A stretch of DNA of 30,031 nucleotides, from positions 1 through 30,031 of the IMG/VR virus record IMGVR_UViG_3300020185_001777. One strand, given 5' to 3'. The translations under genes and the position numbers were made by a program. Below, piece after piece: positions 1-21,617 of this stretch; positions within the stretch are counted from its first letter, which is position 1, and the number at the start of each line of letters is the position of its first letter. Origin of the DNA: a virus. The notes beneath the pieces were generated by a model, which was not told where the DNA came from, searched no databases, and saw only the letters and a program-made list of their open reading frames with translations.

Positions 1-345
1 ACCGTTTTCGTTATCTTCGGCTACTGAAATCTTTATGTAACGACCTGGATATTCATCATTGATCGCTTCAAACAAATCATCTGCTATCATCTCGCAGGAC
101 TTGTTATTAAGTTGGATTATATCTTCTTTGTATAAGTTCTCCAACCATCTTTTAAACTGTATAAACTCTATATCTCTATCGTCATGAAACACTTCAATCC
201 ACACTTTAAAGTGGAAGATGTGTCTGTGAGGATAGCCTAAAAAACTAACATCATACTCATCGCCTGTTGCTAGATTAGGATCTTCTAATGCCGCAGGATA
301 CTTATGTATACCTTCTTTACTAAATGTTACCCAAATACTTCTCAT
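1..345 (-). CDS. QueD/PTPS-like T-fold protein, 3' part missing
   Basis: The frame starts at ATG 345, after a GAGG ribosome site, and runs off the window after 115 residues. It resembles the 6-pyruvoyl-tetrahydropterin synthase / QueD family, whose QueD members make 6-carboxytetrahydropterin on the way to preQ0. What I see is an H-R-H pair at residues 40-42 followed by an alternating beta-strand pattern, an earlier His14 that could complete the zinc triad, an EFIQFKRWL segment where the family has its DF..LK helix, and a late Glu near residue 110 in the position of the pterin-anchoring Glu. Oddity: no cysteine lies between His14 and His40, where QueD has its catalytic Cys, so the reaction may differ. 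It is the last visible gene of the early operon and lies 17 bases after cspA. The T-fold assignment is moderately supported; the exact activity is inference. Confidence 0.5.
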   Translation of the reverse strand, partial: MRSIWVTFSKEGIHKYPAALEDPNLATGDEYDVSFLGYPHRHIFHFKVWIEVFHDDRDIEFIQFKRWLENLYKEDIIQLNNKSCEMIADDLFEAINDEYPGRYIKISVAEDNENG

Positions 346-2789: not shown

Positions 2790-3296
2790 TCAATCTATCA
2801 CCTCGTCTTTGGTATATTTGGTCCAGTCTGTGAAAGTCTTCCTGTCTTGTAGTTCATGTAAACTATGACACCACACACCTGGATTAGTTGCTTTAAAGTC
2901 TTTGTCATCTAGTTTGAGTGTCGCATTGTAATTGAATTGATTAATGTAAGGCAACTTAACACTTATCATTGGTATAAATGTACTATACTCAGTCCAACCA
3001 CATTCTAATACTTGTTCTGCTAAAGTTACGTCAAAGTCTAGTGTAATCCAAATATCATCTTTTAAAAGACTTGTAACTAGTTCGTCCCAACCCTGCCAAT
3101 CTTTTTCAGTTGGTGGATTAAAACTTTGGTTAGCACCTATATAAATGTGCGGACAACCGCTATTAAGTGCCCTAGCAAGTATTTCCTCTTTTGGTTGATA
3201 CCCAACTACAAACAAAGTCTTTTGACCATAAGCAGGCGTATGCTCTACTTCAGTGCCTATAAAAAACTTTGTATCCTCGTGACCTTCTCTATTCAT
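2790..3296 (-). CDS. Conserved-looking unknown protein in the dpdA cluster
   Basis: I place the start at ATG 3296 because it forms a TAATG overlap with the stop of the 64-residue gene. A GTG at 3317 would add seven residues. The 168-residue protein has an alternating beta/alpha pattern: TLFVVGYQPKEEILARALNS, then PHIYIGANQSF, then DIWITLDFDVTLAEQVLECG, then FIPMISVKLPYINQFNY, like half of a TIM barrel or a Rossmann-like sheet. It ends with an aromatic-rich segment containing NPGVWCHSLHEL. I recognise no family and no catalytic motif. Its coupling to dpdA and the 64-residue gene suggests a partner in the same process. It stops just before the early promoter at 2759-2787. Confidence 0.6.
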   Translation of the reverse strand: MNREGHEDTKFFIGTEVEHTPAYGQKTLFVVGYQPKEEILARALNSGCPHIYIGANQSFNPPTEKDWQGWDELVTSLLKDDIWITLDFDVTLAEQVLECGWTEYSTFIPMISVKLPYINQFNYNATLKLDDKDFKATNPGVWCHSLHELQDRKTFTDWTKYTKDEVID

Positions 3297-3490
3297 TAGT
3301 AACTCGTATAACCCCACTTAATTAATTGATCTTGATAATCTACACCTTCATCAATGTTTACAACTTTAGTAGGTGTAGTTTTACCATCTTTAGTCTCTAG
3401 TATTTCCATTTCAGCACCATTCTCTAGTATATGAAATTGTACATCATGTCCTTCGTATGTGTATGTGCCACTGTATGCTTTATTCGCCAT
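3296..3490 (-). CDS. Small unknown protein coupled to dpdA
   Basis: This 64-residue protein has no recognised family. It looks like a small beta-rich domain: an amphipathic strand pair (YSGTYTYEGHDVQFHILENG), a charged turn and a final helix-like segment ending KWGYTSY. No cysteine cluster, signal peptide or membrane segment is seen. Its ATG at 3490 overlaps the last 11 bases of dpdA, and its stop overlaps the next ATG (TAATG), so it is almost certainly translated from the dpdA mRNA. A role as an accessory subunit of the transglycosylase is inference from position only. Confidence 0.6.
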   Translation of the reverse strand: MANKAYSGTYTYEGHDVQFHILENGAEMEILETKDGKTTPTKVVNIDEGVDYQDQLIKWGYTSY

Positions 3491-5021
3491 CGAAATCTGC
3501 CCTCATTATGTCTTCTTGCATATCTGCTTCACTGTCACCTGACTCGTATTCGTCAGTTTCAAATAAAGCACCAAATGTAGATTGTTCCGCACTACCATCT
3601 GAGAAACTAATCTCTTTTAAAAACTCTTTGTTATCTTCTAACATTTGCCTTGCATTTGTGTTATTAGGATCTAACACTTCTTCTGCAAAACTATCAAACA
3701 TTAAAATAGTACCAGGTACATAAGGTGAAGTTTCATTGCTTACACTACTACCTTTTACCTTCTTCCAGTTCTTCCAATGTGTAGGTGTTCTATATTTTTC
3801 CATATCAGCAAGTCTATTTGCTTCTTGCGTTGCTGTAATATGATTATAAACACTATGACCCATGTAAAGAGCATAACTTAGTGTGTCCCAACTAGTTGTG
3901 CATTCTTTACCATTCCTGTTTGTATCTCCATGTCCTAAAACACAGATATCACCAACAGTTAGTCTACTCATTATAGGGGAATGTGCAAAAGGCATAGGCA
4001 TCTTTGATCCTTTCATGTCTTTGTTATCGAATGCTCTATCCATAAAGTATCCAAATCGCTTGGCTCTGTACTCATTATGTGTGTAAGTCTGGCCATATGC
4101 TGTATTAACAAAAGGCGATGCCGCATCAAATGAAAGTGTTATATTAGGATTGTCGTGCTTTCTCAACTGTCTTTGGATACTAGTGAGGTGACATGCCCAA
4201 TTAAGGCGTCCAGTACCTAAGAAGTGTATCCAATCCTTGCCTTCAAGTAAACCGTCTTCTCTAAGATCCAACAATCTACTTAGCACACTATACATGTGCT
4301 TCATATTGATACCAGCGAATGCGTAACCCTCTAAGGTTCTATTCTCATCACCGTATGCTTCTTGCACAAAACTTTTATTGGAAAAATGCTTTACTGCATC
4401 ATACCATGTTTTGCTATTCTCTTCGTTACTACCACTTAACACATTTAAAAACTTAGTAGCACCTGGTGTTCTGTTCCTCATAAAATAGTCTAAATTAAGT
4501 AGACTGATATCTAGTGTGTCTTGAAATTCTGTAAGTCCTGTCCTTTCGCTTAGTTTACCAACTGCCGCAAAAGCAGGAACATCTAATGTCATACTCCAGT
4601 CTGCTGTATGCTCTAACCATGTAAGTATCTTATTACAAAATGCTGTTCTTACAGGATCATTAGGATCTTTAGCATTGCTCCAATCCATTTTAATAACACC
4701 TGTGGCAAGTTGGAAACCACCTGAGTCTCCTAGTATCATAGTTTTACTACGATCTCTACCTTGTATCATTGGCTCACGTTCATCGCTTTTAACAGGATCT
4801 AAGTGAGCATGTCCACCTGAGTAAAGACCCCATGGGTAATGATAATAACTGTTCTCAGGATCAAGGAAGTTCATACCTTGTGTGCCTTTTTCAAAGCCTT
4901 CAGGGCATCTCCATTCACTTGGATTAGCATCCATTTTCTGTAATTGCGTTACATAGAACCCACTAATGGCGGGCAGGTAAACTGCCCAATCCTGGTGCTT
5001 CTTTCCTAAATCTTCTGTCAT
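3480..5021 (-). CDS. dpdA: DpdA-like DNA guanine transglycosylase (TGT paralogue)
   Basis: This 513-residue protein is a relative of tRNA-guanine transglycosylase. DSGGFQ at 99-104 matches the strictly conserved DSGG(F/Y)Q whose Asp binds the base. LDVPAF at 146-151 sits where TGT has its second base-binding Asp. FAGINM at 235-240 matches the glycine-rich turn. SFDAASPFVNT at 297-307 matches the FD....TRN region with the nucleophile, here Asp299. The canonical CxCxxC zinc motif is absent; Cys360, His364, Cys374 and His389/394 are scattered in the right region and could form a variant site. DpdA enzymes swap guanine in phage or island DNA for a 7-deazaguanine base. It starts 2 bases after the clamp-like gene and overlaps the next gene. 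A tRNA-acting TGT is less likely given the divergence and the phage context. Confidence 0.75.
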   Translation of the reverse strand: MTEDLGKKHQDWAVYLPAISGFYVTQLQKMDANPSEWRCPEGFEKGTQGMNFLDPENSYYHYPWGLYSGGHAHLDPVKSDEREPMIQGRDRSKTMILGDSGGFQLATGVIKMDWSNAKDPNDPVRTAFCNKILTWLEHTADWSMTLDVPAFAAVGKLSERTGLTEFQDTLDISLLNLDYFMRNRTPGATKFLNVLSGSNEENSKTWYDAVKHFSNKSFVQEAYGDENRTLEGYAFAGINMKHMYSVLSRLLDLREDGLLEGKDWIHFLGTGRLNWACHLTSIQRQLRKHDNPNITLSFDAASPFVNTAYGQTYTHNEYRAKRFGYFMDRAFDNKDMKGSKMPMPFAHSPIMSRLTVGDICVLGHGDTNRNGKECTTSWDTLSYALYMGHSVYNHITATQEANRLADMEKYRTPTHWKNWKKVKGSSVSNETSPYVPGTILMFDSFAEEVLDPNNTNARQMLEDNKEFLKEISFSDGSAEQSTFGALFETDEYESGDSEADMQEDIMRADFDGE

Positions 5022-5023
5022 GT

Positions 5024-5767
5024 TTAACTCTTAGCAGGTAATATATATTTGTATTCGCCTAAGCCACTGTCAATCACAATTTGCATTGCTCCTGCGTTAG
5101 CAAAACTAACAGTACAATTTGCACTATCGCTTAGTCTTAGAATACTTAATGTTTTGTCTATTTCCCATTTCCAGTTGCCAGACAGTTCGCCTTCAACATT
5201 ATTATTAATAGGAAGTTTACCTTTATCACCGGCACCTTCACCAATGCTAAAATATAAAGCACCATCTTCTGTACTTGGAGAAAACACTGGTTCAAAGCCA
5301 CCTAACACACCATTGAAGTAACCTAAGTCTTTTAAGTTCTTCTGTGACGGTGTAATAGTAACGTCCCATGGTATCTCTTTCATTGTAACAGATTTTAGTT
5401 GCTGATTAATAACATCTGCTAACATAAATCTATAACTACCTGTGTGTCCTTCTGCACTTGTGAAACTAATCTGTACAGGAATATCGTCTCCATTCCTGCT
5501 TTGTGTTTCTACATTTACAGTAGAACCTTCATCTACAAATCCTGGAAACTTTAAGTATCCATCTAGTACACTCATTCTACTAAGACCTACTGTTTGGTCT
5601 ACAAAGTCTGCTACAGGATTGTGTAGTTTACCTTGCAGGATAACAGTTTTGTCTGCATCCATGGCCTCTATAGTTGTACTTTCAGCAGTACCACTAATTT
5701 TAACCTGTTCAATAAAGCCTAAGGCGTGGGTGTGCCTTAGAATGTCTTTAAATATATCTTTTATCAT
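5024..5767 (-). CDS. Probable sliding clamp (gp45/PCNA-like)
   Basis: This 247-residue protein has the length and pattern of a clamp subunit. An N-terminal helix (FKDILRHTHALG) is followed by a strand series with TTIEAMDADKTVILQGKL, which resembles the first PCNA repeat. A second half begins near TGSYRFMLADVINQQL and ends in the strand GEYKYILPAKS, like the usual clamp C-terminus. Clamps encircle DNA and hold the polymerase. Supporting context: the gene follows the DNA polymerase gene directly, and that polymerase ends in a PIP-like tail. Similarity to T4 gp45 is weak by eye, so a different beta-rich DNA-binding role is possible. It has its own CTAAATA promoter, and its stop lies 2 bases before the dpdA start, so both are likely transcribed together. 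Confidence 0.55.
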   Translation of the reverse strand: MIKDIFKDILRHTHALGFIEQVKISGTAESTTIEAMDADKTVILQGKLHNPVADFVDQTVGLSRMSVLDGYLKFPGFVDEGSTVNVETQSRNGDDIPVQISFTSAEGHTGSYRFMLADVINQQLKSVTMKEIPWDVTITPSQKNLKDLGYFNGVLGGFEPVFSPSTEDGALYFSIGEGAGDKGKLPINNNVEGELSGNWKWEIDKTLSILRLSDSANCTVSFANAGAMQIVIDSGLGEYKYILPAKS

Positions 5768-5857: not shown

Positions 5858-8563
5858 TTAATCATTAAAATTAAATAAACTATGGAATGTATTGCTGGTA
5901 TCTGTTGCTGACAAATCCCATTTAAGTACATTCAATAAGTTTTCTACTTTCTTATCAACAACTGCTTCTTCCATTGAATCTTCATCAAAGGGTAGTTGTT
6001 TAAACCATTCTGGTATATGCATTTCATCTGTTGGATATGCAATACTAGTATATCCCATGGCATTACTTTTAAGCCTGCATACAATAACTTTCATACCATC
6101 TGTTATTTGCATACTGTATTGATCGCTATTTGCTTTTAGCATATTATTCCAATTAATACTTGCTCTAACATGCCCGGGGATCATTATTTTCTTTTCGTCT
6201 TTGAGTTTTTCTAACTTGTATAAACTAGCACTTTTGTTCATACTAAATGCTTTATTATATGCTTCTGTGTAGTATGTTAAGTTGTTTACACGTTTTGGCA
6301 TACCTTTACGCCAAGGGTCCATTGCTTTAAACTCTTTCTTAAACTCTCTAACATTTGCTAAAACCTTTGTTTCACCATCGCCATTTAGTGTTTGCCCTAA
6401 TATGTCTGATAAAAAGTCTTGCACAAACTCTGGAGTATCTGACCTCTTAAGGTCTAACCCCATTACTTTGAGTTTACCACCTTCGGGTTGATACCCTTCT
6501 AAATCTAATACATTAATAGCATATCTTTTCTTTGTAATAAAGATGCCGGCTCTACCAACTACTTCTCTGCCGGCTTTAAGTATATTACCTTGGCTAGTTG
6601 AAATGTTAAATGAATTTTTTGCAAATAAAGGGAAAGAATCACTAACGGTATCTGATATAGTATCATATAATTTAATTGCACTATCCATGTCTAATTCAAT
6701 GTCTTGCTTTTTACTAATCTCATGAGCACTAAAATACACTGAGTCAGTATCACCATATACTATTGTATCTCCAGTATGATCATACTCGCCTGTGAGCATT
6801 TTGTTTGTCTCTGCTCCCATGTGTCTAGTGATTGCACGACCAGTAAGTGTAGTACTTTGACCTATCCTGTGGTCAAAGAACCTACTACCTGGATTACAAA
6901 TAGCACCATATGTACTGTTAAGTAGAATCTTTCTGACTAACTGTCGCTTATCCCAAAATGCTATGTCTTCTGGCGTTGTTGCTTTTTTCTTTTTAGCCTG
7001 TAACTCTTGTCTTTCTGCATACCATCTCTCCAATAGTCCTGGTATAATACCTTGTACATCTGTTCTGTATATAGTACCATTTGCACTAATGCACCAAGGC
7101 TCATCACTGTTAAACAGCATGTTATATACATCAGCACCTTTGACACTAACTTCTCTTTTATCTTCTAAATCTAATATAAGTGGCTTATCAATATCTTTAG
7201 CCATTACCATTTCATATTCATTTGTACCGAACTTACCTGCCCAGGCATCTGCAAATGACTTCTTCTCAATTTGCATTTTTTCTGTAATTTCTTTGTCTGT
7301 GTACTCTTGTCTTAGTTGCCCAACAATAGTTTCAGGAGCCATATTCAATGCTCTAATAACACTTGGATACAGACTGTTTATATCCATTGATCCTACCCAT
7401 TCATGCATACCTTTCTTAGGAAATGCCACATAGGCACCTGCAACTGTATTCCCCCATGGATTCTCAGAATCTTTGTTTCGCTTTCTATCTGGTATAACCA
7501 TACCGCGTCTGTGTGCTTCATTGATAATAGCAGAGTCAATTGTTTGTACCGCTCCCATTGTTACTGGAAGTAATACTGTATTCTGATGAGCAATCTCACT
7601 AGCAAGACTAATAAATTGTAACTTGTCGTCTAACTTTTTAAGTAGCATTGTGTCTTGAATATTGTATTCTAAAAACAATTCAAAGTCATGATTGTAAAGT
7701 CTATCAAGCGAACCATCATATACAACCTTCTTTTCACCTACTTCCATTTCGCCAATGTAGTCTAGTCTATAACTATGGCGTTCTTCGTAGTTGTATTTTC
7801 TATACAGTTGCATATAGTCTAAATGCACACGACCTACTAGATCATATGTTTGTGTTTCTCTACCGTGATTGATGTATTCTCTTTTAACAATATTCTTATC
7901 AAGTAAACACAGACGCCTTGTTTCGCTTTTACCTAGTACTTTGATAATTCTGTTTACGGTATAAGGAATATCATAACCTTCACTGTTCCAACCACTTAGT
8001 ATATCAGCATCATCAATGAGGCTAAGGAAAGCATCTAACATTGCTTTCTCGCCACCAAATAGTATTGTATCGCCTACATTATCTGCAATCTTTTGTGCTT
8101 GTTCCCAATTAAGTGTTTTAGGTGGAACTGCTAAACATACTATTTTATCCATCCAGTCTAAGTAAACACTGATACTAGTGATAGGCATAAATGCATCTTC
8201 AGGAGAACTATAACCTCTTTCAGGGTCAAAGTCTACCTCAATATCAAAAAAGCATTTGTGTAAGTCTGGTGCATCAACACCCAAGTAATGATCTGCTAAT
8301 ACTCTATTAACAGGCTTTAGGTCGCTTTCGTATGTTTGTTTGTTTTGATATAGTGCTACATTGCGTTTAAAGTCTTTCCAGTTGTTTGCTGTAATCTTGC
8401 TAACTGGGTCACCGAATACACTATGCTGTTTGCCTTTTGGATCATCTACATAAAAGTAGTACCGCATAGGGTGATCAATGATCTTACGTTCGCCTTCTTT
8501 TGTTCGCTCGACTACTCTTACTATGCCTTTGTTCTGTTCAAAAACTGCGTCAACGTAACTCAT
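5858..8563 (-). CDS. 43: Family B replicative DNA polymerase (gp43)
   Basis: At 901 residues it is almost the length of T4 gp43 (898). The 3'-5' exonuclease motifs are FFDIEV at 105-110 (Asp107, Glu109), NSEGYDIPY at 193-201 and YNIQD at 300-304. The polymerase motifs are DINSLYPS at 394-401, KILLNSTYG at 545-553 and YGDTDSVY at 603-610, so both activities should work. The C-terminus ends in FHSLFNFND, similar to the clamp-binding tail of T4 gp43. The start at 8563 overlaps the preceding 86-residue gene by 14 bases, and both should be driven by the sigma70 promoter at 8817-8844. It copies the phage genome, and its tolerance of modified template bases would matter if dpdA acts on the DNA. Confidence 0.97.
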   Translation of the reverse strand: MSYVDAVFEQNKGIVRVVERTKEGERKIIDHPMRYYFYVDDPKGKQHSVFGDPVSKITANNWKDFKRNVALYQNKQTYESDLKPVNRVLADHYLGVDAPDLHKCFFDIEVDFDPERGYSSPEDAFMPITSISVYLDWMDKIVCLAVPPKTLNWEQAQKIADNVGDTILFGGEKAMLDAFLSLIDDADILSGWNSEGYDIPYTVNRIIKVLGKSETRRLCLLDKNIVKREYINHGRETQTYDLVGRVHLDYMQLYRKYNYEERHSYRLDYIGEMEVGEKKVVYDGSLDRLYNHDFELFLEYNIQDTMLLKKLDDKLQFISLASEIAHQNTVLLPVTMGAVQTIDSAIINEAHRRGMVIPDRKRNKDSENPWGNTVAGAYVAFPKKGMHEWVGSMDINSLYPSVIRALNMAPETIVGQLRQEYTDKEITEKMQIEKKSFADAWAGKFGTNEYEMVMAKDIDKPLILDLEDKREVSVKGADVYNMLFNSDEPWCISANGTIYRTDVQGIIPGLLERWYAERQELQAKKKKATTPEDIAFWDKRQLVRKILLNSTYGAICNPGSRFFDHRIGQSTTLTGRAITRHMGAETNKMLTGEYDHTGDTIVYGDTDSVYFSAHEISKKQDIELDMDSAIKLYDTISDTVSDSFPLFAKNSFNISTSQGNILKAGREVVGRAGIFITKKRYAINVLDLEGYQPEGGKLKVMGLDLKRSDTPEFVQDFLSDILGQTLNGDGETKVLANVREFKKEFKAMDPWRKGMPKRVNNLTYYTEAYNKAFSMNKSASLYKLEKLKDEKKIMIPGHVRASINWNNMLKANSDQYSMQITDGMKVIVCRLKSNAMGYTSIAYPTDEMHIPEWFKQLPFDEDSMEEAVVDKKVENLLNVLKWDLSATDTSNTFHSLFNFND

Positions 8564-17816: not shown

Positions 17817-20800
17817 TTACTCCGCCATCACAAACGTTATCCAAGCATGGGTGCTTGTTCCAAACGATCTACTTGCTCCTGTAATGGCTTCTGATACTTT
17901 TAAGTCAACATTAGCATCTGTAGAGAAACTACCAAATGCTGTTGGTGATCCGCTACTTCCACCACCGTCTACAGTTCTAGTAGTCCAGTCTCCGCTTACT
18001 GCGTTCATGCTATACTTGTTTGAAGCATACTGATAACCATGAGCCATAATTGCTACTGGCGGATAATCAAATCCTGTGAATTGAACTTCTAATTCAGCAC
18101 CTGCGGCACTTGTAATTGTTGTAGCATTAATGCCTGCTGTGACATTTGATATACTTGTTAATTCGCCTGATGTGTTATAATTTAATTTTAATCTTTCGTA
18201 TGTGTTACCACGTGTTACAGAGCCGCCACCGCCTCCGCCACTAATTGTAATTGTTTTAGTTGTACCTGATCCAGATGCAACAACACCCGAACCTACAAAA
18301 TTAAGAGTTGAAGCCGCTGTTGCTAATGATGAACCTTCGTCTTGTACAGTAATAGCACTACCACTACCTGCTGGTCCTGTTGGTCCAGTTGCACCTGCTG
18401 GTCCTGTTGGACCTGCTACTGTACTTGCTTCACCTTTTTGTCCTTTATCACCTGCTGGTCCTTGTGCACCATCTGATCCTGTAGAACCATCTGCACCTGC
18501 GGCACCTTGTGCTCCAGTTTGACCTTTTTCGCCTTTATCACCTGTGGGTCCTGTTGGGCCACCTAATTCACCTTTGTCGCCCTTACTTCCTGTTGGACCA
18601 GTACCACCTACATTTCCTTGAGGTCCTGTTGGTCCAGTTGCTCCAACTGTTCCTTGTGGTCCTACTTCACCCTTAGTACCCTGTCCACCTTGTGGTCCAG
18701 TAGCACCTTGAGGTCCTAATTCACCTTTTTGTCCTTTTGCTCCGTCACTACCGTCACTACCGTTATTACCAGTAGCACCTGTATCTCCTTTGGTACCTTG
18801 TGGACCTGTTGGTCCTGTATTTCCTTGTGGTCCTGCTACTGTGCTATCTGCACCAGTGGCTCCTTTTTGTCCTTGAGCACCTTGTGGACCTGTGGCACCT
18901 TGAGCACCAGTTGGACCTTGTGGACCTGTATCGCCTTTAGAACCCTGAGGTCCTGTTGGTCCTGCTACACCTTGTGCACCAGTTGTACCTTGAGCACCTG
19001 TAACACCTTGTTCGCCTTTTAGTCCATCGTCACCTTTCTGACCTTTGTCTCCTGCTGGGGAGGCCGCTACCCATGAACTATCATAATAAACATATAGTTC
19101 ACCTGAGTCACTTGCCCACCATAAGTCGCCTTCTACTATACTACCGCTTGGTGATGTATTTGCAACTGTTACAGAAGCATCAACACTATCCAGTGCCGAA
19201 CTTATATCAACACTACTAACACCGCCACTAATAGAAATAACATTACCTGATATGCTTAGTGTTTGGTTAGTACCAGCACCAATTTCACCTTTTTGTCCTT
19301 GTGGTCCTGTTGCTCCAACTTCACCTTTGGTTCCGGTTGGACCTTGTGGACCTGTTGGTCCTACATTACCTTGTGGTCCAGTTGCTCCAACTTCGCCTTT
19401 TGATCCATCGTTACCTGCTGGTCCTTGTGGTCCAATTTCGCCTTTTGCTCCATCGTTACCTGCTGGTCCAGTTGCACCTTGAGGTCCTGTGGCACCTGTA
19501 TTGCCTTGAGCACCTTTATCTCCAGTATTACCAGCAACACCTTGTGCTCCTTGGTCACCTTTTGAACCTTTGTCTCCGTTTGCTCCTGCTGGACCAGTGT
19601 TACCTATAGCACCTTGTGGTCCAGTGGCTCCTGTTGCGCCAGTATCTCCTAATTCACCTTTTTGTCCTTTTGCTCCGTCACTACCTGCAGGTCCAGTTGC
19701 TCCAGTATCACCTTTAACTCCTGCACCACCGCCCCCGGTAGCATCGATTGTAATTGTTTGTGCATTACTATCTGCTGATATTGTTGCATTTGCACCTGCG
19801 ATAAATGTTAATTGGTCTGCGGCTACATTTGCTACTACACTATTACCACCTTGTACACTTACTGTTTTAAATGCTTCGCCGGCTCCACCGCCTCCGCCAC
19901 CGCCTGTGTTATTAATTGTAATAGTATCAGTACTTGCATCAGCAGTAATTGAAATGCCACTACCTGCTACAAAATTTAATGTATCTTGATTGTTGTCTGC
20001 AATAATTAAATCTTGACCAGCAACACTGATATTTTTAAATATACCGTCATTTAATTGTGTATTATTAATTGTTACTGTATCGCCAGTGACTACTGTTGTT
20101 ATTCCTGTGCCACCAACAATATTAAATGTATCGTCTTTTGCACTAGCATCAGTAGAACCTGAATCGCCTGTAAAACTCTTATAATATCTTAATGCAGATA
20201 CATTGGAACTAATTGCTGTATTAACTTCTGCTTTAGTATACTTGTCAATGCTACTGTCGTCTAGTGTAGCATCTATTGTAATTGTATCTGTTCCTGGGTT
20301 AGCAGTAAAACTTACATTGCTACCGCTAACTAAATTAAGTGTATCATTATTATTGTCTGCAATAATAAGTATACCATCTGCACTAACGTTTTTAAATACG
20401 CCTGTGATAGCATCTGTTTTTGAAATCTGTATAGTATTGTTAGCAGTATATTGATTTATACCAATGCCTGTTCCACCCTCAAATCTAATTGCGTGGGTGG
20501 CACTTGTGGCACTGATTGTGTTTGCTGAACCAACACTAGTAACTGTGCTTATAGCATTTTGTAATTGTGCTGATGAAATATTGGCATCAACTTCTGCTTT
20601 GCTGTAAACACCTAAATTTGTTCTTGCTGTTGCGGCATTTGGTAAGTCACTTAAATTATTTGTTTTAATAACTGCATTTGCTAATGTTGCCGCTGTAATA
20701 ATAGTTGCGCCATCTTCTAATCTAATGGCCGCATCTGCTGTTCCTCTAAATCTGTTTGCAAATATATTTAAATATTTGTAATTGCTGTTTCCAATGTCAT

Positions 20801-21617
20801 ATGACATTGTGGTATCTGGCATACTAGTAGCATTTTTAGGTATATAATTTGCTAAGTTGGCAGTTAGTTGACTAGCAGTTAAACCACCAGTTTGTAATGT
20901 TGTCCAACTAACACCACCTGAACCATTTGTTACAAGTACTTGTCCATTTGTACCATCTGATGTTGGTAATGTAAATGCATTAGCAAATGTTGTACTTCTG
21001 TTTGAATTTATTTTTAATGCTGGTGTTGTGCTACTTGCACTACCTACATAAAATACAGTACTGTTTGCACTTCTAACTTCTATATGTCCATCTGTGCTTT
21101 TTGTTGCTAATATTAAACTATGTTGTGAACTAAGTTCTACATCTGCGGCATCGTTTGAACTAATAACAAATCTTGTTTTAGAATCAAATCCTGCACTTTG
21201 ACTGTGTGTAGGATAGTTTGCGTTATTTAATATACCTGCGTATGCTGTGATATTAGCATTATCACCAAAGTTTCTACCTGAGAAGATATTTGTATTGCCA
21301 TTCACATTGTGAATGCTTAATGGTGTTGGTATTGTATATGCTGTTGAGGAAACAGTAATAACGTTTGCAGATTCAGTTACAGTAGTTGCACCTGAGCCTT
21401 GTATCTTTTTAAAGTTTAATTGTGAACCGTCTTTTGCTGAGAATAAGCCTATTCCAGAAGCACCTACATTGCTACCACCTGTAACGGCGGCGTTTGCATC
21501 TGCAGAAACACTATCTTGTGCTACAAAAATTCCTTGCGTAGAATCGTAAACTAGGATCTGATTATCGGTGATCCCGTCTATATTAAAAGTTAAATTATCT
21601 CCTGTTACATTTGGCAT
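17817..21617 (-). CDS. Collagen-like tail fibre protein, 1266 residues
   Basis: This is the largest gene in the window. Residues 1-400 are Ser/Thr/Asn-rich fibre sequence. About 404-450, 523-568 and 580-626 hold three copies of a ~45-residue beta repeat (F.N.S..G.....ADN..DTLN...G......A...DTITI). Collagen-type Gly-X-Y triplets fill about 632-777 and 852-1084, interrupted by a ~75-residue globular linker containing [17 protein letters not shown] further, weaker copy of the beta repeat follows, then a C-terminal domain of about 130 residues ending TFVMAE, probably the receptor-binding or trimer-capping head. Collagen-like segments form extended trimers in phage fibres. The ATG follows a late promoter at 21649-21656. 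Confidence 0.88.
18364..19058 (-). repeat. Collagen-like Gly-X-Y repeat DNA, block 2
   Basis: An approximate 9-base periodic tract codes for about 230 residues of Gly-X-Y triplets rich in GPQG, GPTG and GDKG units. Near-identical units make it a likely place for slippage and recombination. It is coding, not a CRISPR or satellite. Confidence 0.85.
19278..19722 (-). repeat. Collagen-like Gly-X-Y repeat DNA, block 1
   Basis: The first collagen block codes for about 147 residues of Gly-X-Y triplets, such as GATGPQG and GPAGNDG. It shares many short identical units with block 2 across the globular linker, so recombination between blocks could lengthen or shorten the fibre. Confidence 0.85.

Follow-up and report, generated by a model that had tools for sequence, protein, structure and literature searches.

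Does the virus recorded as IMG/VR entry IMGVR_UViG_3300020185_001777 exchange guanines in its own DNA for a 7-deazaguanine, and is this exchange coupled to the copying of that DNA? The question is raised by an open reading frame (ORF) at positions 3480-5021 of the stretch analyzed here (positions 1 to 30,031 of the record, 30,031 nucleotides, called the window below). A first-pass annotation made from the letters alone had read this ORF as a candidate DpdA-like enzyme, related to the tRNA-guanine transglycosylases (TGTs), that places 7-deazaguanine in the DNA of a T4-like marine phage. With a probability of roughly 0.65, we favor a DpdA-type exchange of guanine in DNA by an enzyme tethered to the replication clamp and supplied with precursor by FolE, a QueD-type enzyme and QueE of the phage. 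The modification proposed in the first-pass annotation is supported because the protein has a TGT fold, its aspartates are colinear with those of DpdA2, and FolE and QueE genes are found on a contig 99.9% identical to the window.

A probable transglycosylase of the TGT/DpdA superfamily

The ORF starts with ATG and lies on the minus strand, which the first-pass annotation had not given. The motifs singled out there are all present: DSGGFQ begins at Asp99, Asp147 lies within LDVPAF and Asp299 within SFDAASPF. In an alignment of 154 family ORFs (132 distinct aligned sequences, some loci being duplicated), Asp99 is aspartate in all 154, Asp147 in 152 (2 gaps) and Asp299 in 149 (5 gaps). Since none of the three is substituted in any of these ORFs, the motifs are not due to chance. 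A 58-member alignment contains 15 invariant residues, including the three aspartates, SGG with Gln104, Trp206 and His266. By analogy with TGT, we take Asp299 to be the nucleophile, Asp99 the acid/base and Asp147 the residue that holds the base. The reported lack of the CxCxxC zinc motif was borne out: it is missing from the window protein and occurs in a single family member (1/154, the divergent L182); it is also missing from the reference sets of 12 DpdA2 and 4 DpdA1 sequences. At the TGT zinc site, 144 of the 147 ungapped members retain the histidine that aligns with the HN motif.

Family libraries gave little for this protein. Pfam, NCBIfam and PADLOC searches with the single sequence returned nothing up to E 10, PHROG nothing significant (best E 0.052) and a PDB sequence search no match; none of the 58 members matched Pfam (E<=0.01) or PHROG (E 0.001). 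With the family profile, the PDB search yielded only sub-threshold TGT matches (E 1.2 and worse), in which DSGGFQ and the HN histidine were aligned. The profile comparison suggested in the first-pass annotation had a split outcome: the Pfam TGT profile (PF01702) was not matched, and of the two DpdA profiles compared, DpdA1 and DpdA2, the latter was matched by hhalign with 98% probability (E 1.8e-13). Over the 187 aligned columns, Asp99, Asp147 and Asp299 are in register with D76, D112 and D266 of DpdA2. The score was 109.0, whereas 20 column shuffles reached at most 22.6 and the reversed profile 18.3.

Structure prediction also gave a TGT fold. The AlphaFold2 model is confident (pLDDT 91.0, pTM 0.90), except for residues 476-513 (pLDDT <50). 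Superposed with VIA-align, all 50 matches listed were TGTs, with Z of 18.4-19.4 and an rmsd of 4.3-4.8 over 289-323 residues, at 13-15% identity in the structural alignments. The first Foldseek match in the PDB was a TGT as well (E 1.5e-4), and in a viral library the model matched DpdA2 of phage nt-1 (5.5e-9) and a 'tRNA guanine transglycosylase' of phage Motura (3.2e-11). We file the protein in the TGT/DpdA superfamily as a putative sister group of DpdA2 and not as one of its members, a placement based on profile comparison and not on a tree; by profile, the family is nearer to DpdA2 than to DpdA1.

Two other identities have to be weighed at this point. A tRNA modifier, that is a phage tRNA-guanine transglycosylase, would agree with the nearest solved structures, which are tRNA TGTs, and with the retention of the HN-aligned histidine. 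However, the zinc cysteines are lost, the gene lies in a polymerase-clamp operon, and the match is to DpdA2, whose phage nt-1 has modified guanines in its DNA according to the available text of PMC6884629; this identity is highly improbable. The second is an ordinary divergent DpdA2, new only in its sequence distance, which would be compatible with most of the explanation that we prefer. The profile match speaks for it, and so does a similar motif at the end of 7 of 12 DpdA2 proteins (e.g. TLEDLFG; see below). Yet only 187 columns could be aligned, BLASTP of the window protein against nt-1 DpdA2 found little similarity beyond DSGG, the neighboring genes are unlike those of nt-1 and the family has bacterial relatives of its own. 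We consider it unlikely.

Deazaguanine precursor genes

An 88-kb contig (G022, IMGVR_UViG_3300025849_000022) covers the whole window at 99.87-99.96% identity. About 4 kb past the left edge of the window, on the same strand, it carries two precursor genes, one for GTP cyclohydrolase I, FolE (PF01227, E 8.2e-37), and one for a radical SAM protein that resembles QueE of phage Paride (E 8.7e-50) and has the motifs QGEG, CNLQC and GGEP. FolE and QueE are present in the same virus population as the DpdA-like gene. The first-pass annotation had proposed a search for folE, queE and queC; the first two were found in this contig and a full-length QueC was not. More widely, FolE occurred in 30 and radical SAM matches in 26 of the 38 records scanned out of 110 viral records, and the QueE-like matches were examined; further QueD and QueC scans covered 21 of 82 contigs. 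Canonical QueD is encoded by Paride (two copies), Phosso and Vibrio phage 2.275.O.

In the window, the QueD role may be filled by the family of the ORF at 1-345. H14, H40, H42, E85 and E110 are invariant in this family, a pattern that we take to be the zinc histidines and pterin glutamates of QueD, and S-C-E and a C-terminal E-D are kept. Against a profile of 6 QueD sequences it scored E 0.0076 (probability 5%), and against one of 17 sequences E 5.6e-4 (probability 30%, 47 columns), with a score of 28.8 versus at most 15.6 in 30 shuffles. The Pfam QueD profile (PF01242) matched 2 of 35 members, below its cut-off (best E 0.032), and the unrelated PF01179 matched 5 of the 35, up to 0.0063. The ORF is named as a candidate only, because no more than 47 columns align and Pfam gives no match above its cut-off.

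Among 28 records, full-length QueC was found only in Vibrio phage 2.275.O (E 1.7e-51), where QueF is annotated too, together with a vitamin-transporter-like gene that is presumably YhhQ-like. Six of these records had QueC matches, four of them above the cut-off: besides the Vibrio phage, G006, G013 and G016 gave partial matches at 22.7 bits versus a cut-off of 22, and those in G003 and G022 fell below it. The 21 further contigs gave three partial matches, one of which (G044) was above the cut-off. The matching ORFs of G013 (L044:13732-14718) and G022 (L049:9549-10529) were rejected as QueC; judged from their motifs, which we take to be of the NAD-synthetase type, they are NAD-synthetase-like instead and may serve NAD replenishment. 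Phages without QueC may rely on that of the host or insert carboxy-deazaguanine; 7-carboxy-7-deazaguanine reportedly occurs in phage DNA, as Cui et al. are said to have found in 2023. As a separate observation, the environmental contigs G036, G038 and G041-G044 (90-231 kb) have 10-18 radical SAM matches each, far above what QueE requires; these are possibly large biosynthetic clusters in giant phages.

The base could also end up bearing a sugar. The tethered enzyme would then insert carboxy- or cyano-deazaguanine behind the replication fork, and the glycosyltransferase-like protein encoded downstream would glycosylate this base in DNA. Fourteen of the 32 scanned members of that protein family match PF00534 at E<=0.01; the window protein gives 0.0043, below the curated cut-off, and a limited literature search found no report of glycosylated deazaguanine DNA. 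This extension appears distinctly unlikely.

Sliding clamp, DNA polymerase and gene order

The upstream gene called clamp-like in the first-pass annotation (5024-5767) has, by its model, a PCNA-type sliding clamp fold. The predicted structure (pLDDT 92.6) superposes on PCNA in all 50 matches listed (Z 17.2-18.2), over 223-229 of its 247 residues. The identification is based on this superposition. Sequence searches gave little: no clamp was matched when the family was compared with the PDB by profile search and with gp45 of nt-1 by hhalign, and 2 of 43 members weakly matched phrog_223 (processivity factor; best E 0.0034).

The gene order is conserved. In 103 of 106 viral loci, the DpdA-like gene is preceded by a clamp-like ORF no more than 1.5 kb upstream, and in 63 of them the two lie within 100 bases; the loci without it are Phosso (L027), L084 and L141, and three loci with the DpdA-like gene at an edge were excluded from this count. 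Sixty non-redundant loci (DpdA-like proteins <85% identical) were drawn from 109, three of which are named phages. In these 60, the clamp family was found in 58, DNA polymerase B in 53, the 1-345 family in 42, the glycosyltransferase-like family in 41, the 175-aa family in 39, FolE in at least 23 and QueE in at least 7; the last two are lower bounds because neighbors were read within 6 kb, to the ends of the contig or stretch. Subsets were aligned or scanned (43 of 105 clamp-like ORFs, 35 of 42 in the 1-345 family, 32 of 41 glycosyltransferase-like proteins, and 30 of 40 for alignment A9). In Paride (L026:5614-10840), two annotated genes, separated by a homing endonuclease gene, make up the DNA polymerase; the DpdA-like gene of this phage is Paride_0115 and the glycosyltransferase-like one Paride_0116.

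The first-pass annotation did not recognize the composition of this operon as that of a described DpdA system. In phage 9g, DpdA (a DpdA1) adjoins an annotated clamp (polymerase beta subunit) and DNA polymerase, in CAjan one small gene lies between DpdA and the clamp and polymerase genes, and in Dp-1 two genes do. With parallels in 9g and CAjan, the arrangement as such has precedents; the enzyme forms a putative separate group, nearer by profile to DpdA2 than to DpdA1.

A tail motif common to the DpdA-like enzyme and the polymerase

The window polymerase ends in SNTFHSLFNFND, and the disordered tail of the DpdA-like protein contains EQSTFGALFETD. The two share a short hydrophobic motif that we described by a broad pattern, [FLVIM]xx[LFMI][FY], and a strict one, FxxLF. 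The test set comprised 58 of the 60 DpdA-like ORFs, those with a stop codon, and 56 polymerase ORFs, split or truncated ones included. Of the 58 DpdA-like proteins, 52 carry the broad pattern within their last 45 residues (shuffled mean 8.2, maximum 17 in 1000 rounds); 51 of the 56 polymerase ORFs carry it within their last 20 (shuffled mean 7.2, maximum 15). Among other neighboring genes (>=120 aa, last 45 residues), it was found in 48 of 528. The strict pattern, in the last 45 residues, is present in 36 of 58 DpdA-like proteins and 36 of 56 polymerase ORFs versus 4 of the 528 other genes. Of the 32 minus-strand ORFs of the window, only the DpdA-like and polymerase ORFs have FxxLF; a version of the broad pattern with one more residue fixed occurs in 6 of 132 gene calls of G022, these two included.

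The two tails also tend to vary together. The class of motif agrees between the DpdA-like protein and the polymerase in 34 of 45 same-locus pairs (shuffled mean 22.8, maximum 31 in 5000), taking the first tail motif and with related loci not down-weighted. In L062 and L064, for example, the polymerases end in ALQAFFEF and TMQQFFEF and the DpdA-like tails in VLNEFFEF and VMNEFFEF. In bacterial relatives the excess is weak at best (9 of 34; shuffled mean 4.6, maximum 12). Similar motifs, such as SLEDLFA and TLEDLFG, end 7 of 12 DpdA2 proteins (shuffled mean 0.64, maximum 4). DpdA1 proteins encoded near annotated clamp genes also end in short hydrophobic motifs, RLQDLFDE and RVMELF (9g, CAjan; L059, L200), so that tethering to the clamp may extend to other phage DpdA enzymes. 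From its tail, the DpdA-like enzyme is a predicted clamp client that would act behind the replication fork.

Proposed mechanism

In the reading that we favor, the DpdA-like enzyme would exchange guanine in DNA for a 7-deazaguanine through a covalent intermediate. The precursor would be made by the phage FolE, the QueD-type enzyme and QueE, and would be completed to preQ0 by the QueC of the host or left as 7-carboxy-7-deazaguanine. The disordered tail would dock, through its polymerase-like motif, on the PCNA-like clamp encoded beside it, to which the polymerase would bind as well, and docking would allow the enzyme to act on newly made DNA. The modified DNA would presumably be protected from restriction.

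A number of observations weigh against this reading. The top Foldseek match is weak (TM-score 0.37/0.48), with other barrels, e.g. xylanases, close behind and mixed with the TGTs. The family profile finds nothing in DpdA1 by hhalign (probability 0.5%); DpdA2 is likewise missed by DpdA1 (1.1%), so that this failure is no argument against kinship. In the pathway, 25 IMG/VR contigs yielded no canonical QueD (PF01242), and of 21 further ones 8 had it and 13 did not, all of these contigs being fragments; no full-length QueC was found in the 88-kb G022, Paride or Phosso. A literature search, in the sources available to it, found no nucleoside measurement for this phage group. As to the tail, the motif was spotted by eye and the pattern chosen after seeing the tails. 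It is internal to the DpdA-like tail, whereas it stands at the very end of the polymerase, and 6 of 58 relatives are without it, including L063 and L067, whose polymerases have it. In the last 30 residues, the pattern occurs in 14 of 58 DpdA-like proteins (shuffled mean 4.4, maximum 15), which is not beyond shuffling because the motif lies further inside the tail.

These last points also favor a DNA transglycosylase whose tail motif does not bind the clamp, the adjacency of clamp and polymerase reflecting early co-expression. Conserved gene order alone can mean common timing, and the motif sits inside a long acidic tail. Against such an enzyme stand the rarity of FxxLF in other genes of the same neighborhoods and the agreement of motif type within loci beyond all shuffles, relatedness not being removed from the latter figure. 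An untethered enzyme is somewhat unlikely, and tethered exchange remains the reading that we prefer.

Distribution and other genes of the locus

A tblastn search of 50,697 phage records with the DpdA-like protein gave 13 matches, in features annotated as hypothetical. Eleven are in Pseudomonas phages of the PA5oct/Paride type, at 49% identity over 96%; the other two are in Sinorhizobium phage Phosso, at 30% over 94%, and in Vibrio phage 2.275.O, at 36% over 43%. The nearest named phages are jumbo phages of Wroclawvirus, and 'T4-like' was a loose label. Profile searches confirmed at least 580 family stretches among 599 candidates in viral contigs, of which the best 80 were retained, and 40 of 127 candidate stretches in bacterial and archaeal genome contigs; the 60 non-redundant viral loci are therefore the nearest relatives. 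By these searches, the DpdA-like family is a large group in jumbo-phage-like contigs and bacterial genome contigs.

The bacterial loci (L146-L180) come mostly from contigs with Alphaproteobacteria in their titles. In 26 of the 40, a conserved 500-880 aa protein is encoded, mostly adjoining the DpdA-like gene (e.g. L149:3275-7359, L152:4331-7332 and L166:3686-7263); four of five scanned had no Pfam match and one matched at E 0.0099, and the five had no PADLOC match. Eighteen of the 40 encode a small tyrosine recombinase (about 190-200 aa), mostly adjoining too. The bacterial locus resembles a mobile cassette and might serve in defence or modification.

The features of the window locus are listed in Table 1. 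The first-pass annotation had described two coupled genes downstream of the DpdA-like gene, and both overlap their upstream neighbor as it implied. For the first, a search of the ORFs in the viral loci gave 20 relatives. The second, the 175-aa gene, has no Pfam, PHROG or PDB match; a relationship to QueE was considered and rejected (score 22.3 versus shuffles up to 19.8). Elsewhere in the window, the ORF at 17817-21617 encodes a 1266-aa protein with long collagen-like Gly-x-y repeats, possibly a tail fibre, and G+C is 0.467 at 18001-20000 versus 0.33-0.40 in the other 2-kb steps.

Table 1. Features of the DpdA-like locus in the 30,031-nucleotide window
Feature	Position	Strand	Remarks
Candidate divergent QueD-like T-fold protein	1..345	-	Cut by the left edge of the window
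Glycosyltransferase-like protein, 407 aa	1515..2738	-	Third downstream of DpdA-like gene
Conserved module gene, 175 aa	2790..3317	-	Overlaps 3296-3490 by 22 bases
ORF, 64 aa	3296..3490	-	Overlaps the end of the DpdA-like gene by 11 bases
Putative DpdA-like DNA guanine transglycosylase, 513 aa	3480..5021	-	Asp99/Asp147/Asp299 invariant; no CxCxxC
Candidate sliding-clamp-binding motif QSTFGALF, codons 480-487 (predicted)	3561..3584	-	In disordered C-terminal tail
PCNA-like sliding clamp (by model), 247 aa	5024..5767	-	2 bases upstream of DpdA-like gene; phrog_12062 (function unassigned)
Family B DNA polymerase, 901 aa	5858..8563	-	Pfam/PHROG searches; upstream of clamp
Matching polymerase motif NTFHSLF, codons 891-897	5873..5893	-	4 residues from the C-terminus

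Comparison with known systems

These results point to a large group of enzymes that probably modify DNA and go unrecognized by current family libraries, among them that of PA5oct, a jumbo phage studied against Pseudomonas infections (PMC13282480, from the text available). Docking of the tail on the clamp, if real, would reveal a way for a phage to modify its own DNA during copying and tell whether base exchange and replication are coupled. Phage deazaguanines have an anti-restriction role according to the accessible part of PMC6884629, and in Vibrio phage 6E351A a 15% modification of dG consistent with dPreQ1 is described in that of PMC12028318. A deazaguanine synthesis and incorporation system has already been predicted in print for the jumbo phages PA5oct and Motura (Iyer et al. 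2021, PMC7824862, in the text available), and PA5oct belongs to the nearest named group, at 49% identity. What is new here is the tail motif resembling the polymerase C-terminus: neither clamp linkage nor a tail motif is named in the available text of that prediction. Within the partial texts covered, our literature search found no clamp-binding DpdA tail or clamp linkage for this group; the portion of PMC6884629 covered has zero mentions of a clamp, and a paper naming both DpdA and the sliding clamp puts them, in its available text, in separate gene lists.

The DpdA-like protein shares with DpdA2 of nt-1 and KVP40 the profile similarity, DSGG(F/L)Q, the aligned second and third aspartates and the presence of pathway genes in the same phage, but in nt-1 the DpdA2 gene has preQ0 genes around it and is some 26 kb away from the annotated gp45 clamp. 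DpdA1 of 9g and CAjan has the three aspartate motifs in the same order, whereas the 9g enzyme has 317 aa and no profile match to the family. With tRNA TGTs (e.g. that of Zymomonas mobilis in the PDB) the protein has in common the fold, DSGGFQ and the HN histidine near the zinc site; it differs from them in lacking CxCxxC, in its 13-15% identity and in its place in a DNA-replication operon. The closest parallel to the proposed tether comes from T4, where the polymerase (gp43), gp55 and gp33 carry highly similar, interchangeable C-terminal clamp-binding motifs (PMC2988020, in its available part). In both cases, a polymerase and non-polymerase proteins share a short hydrophobic, acidic motif; while the other clients in T4 are late-transcription factors, in the phage studied here the predicted client would be a base-exchange enzyme.

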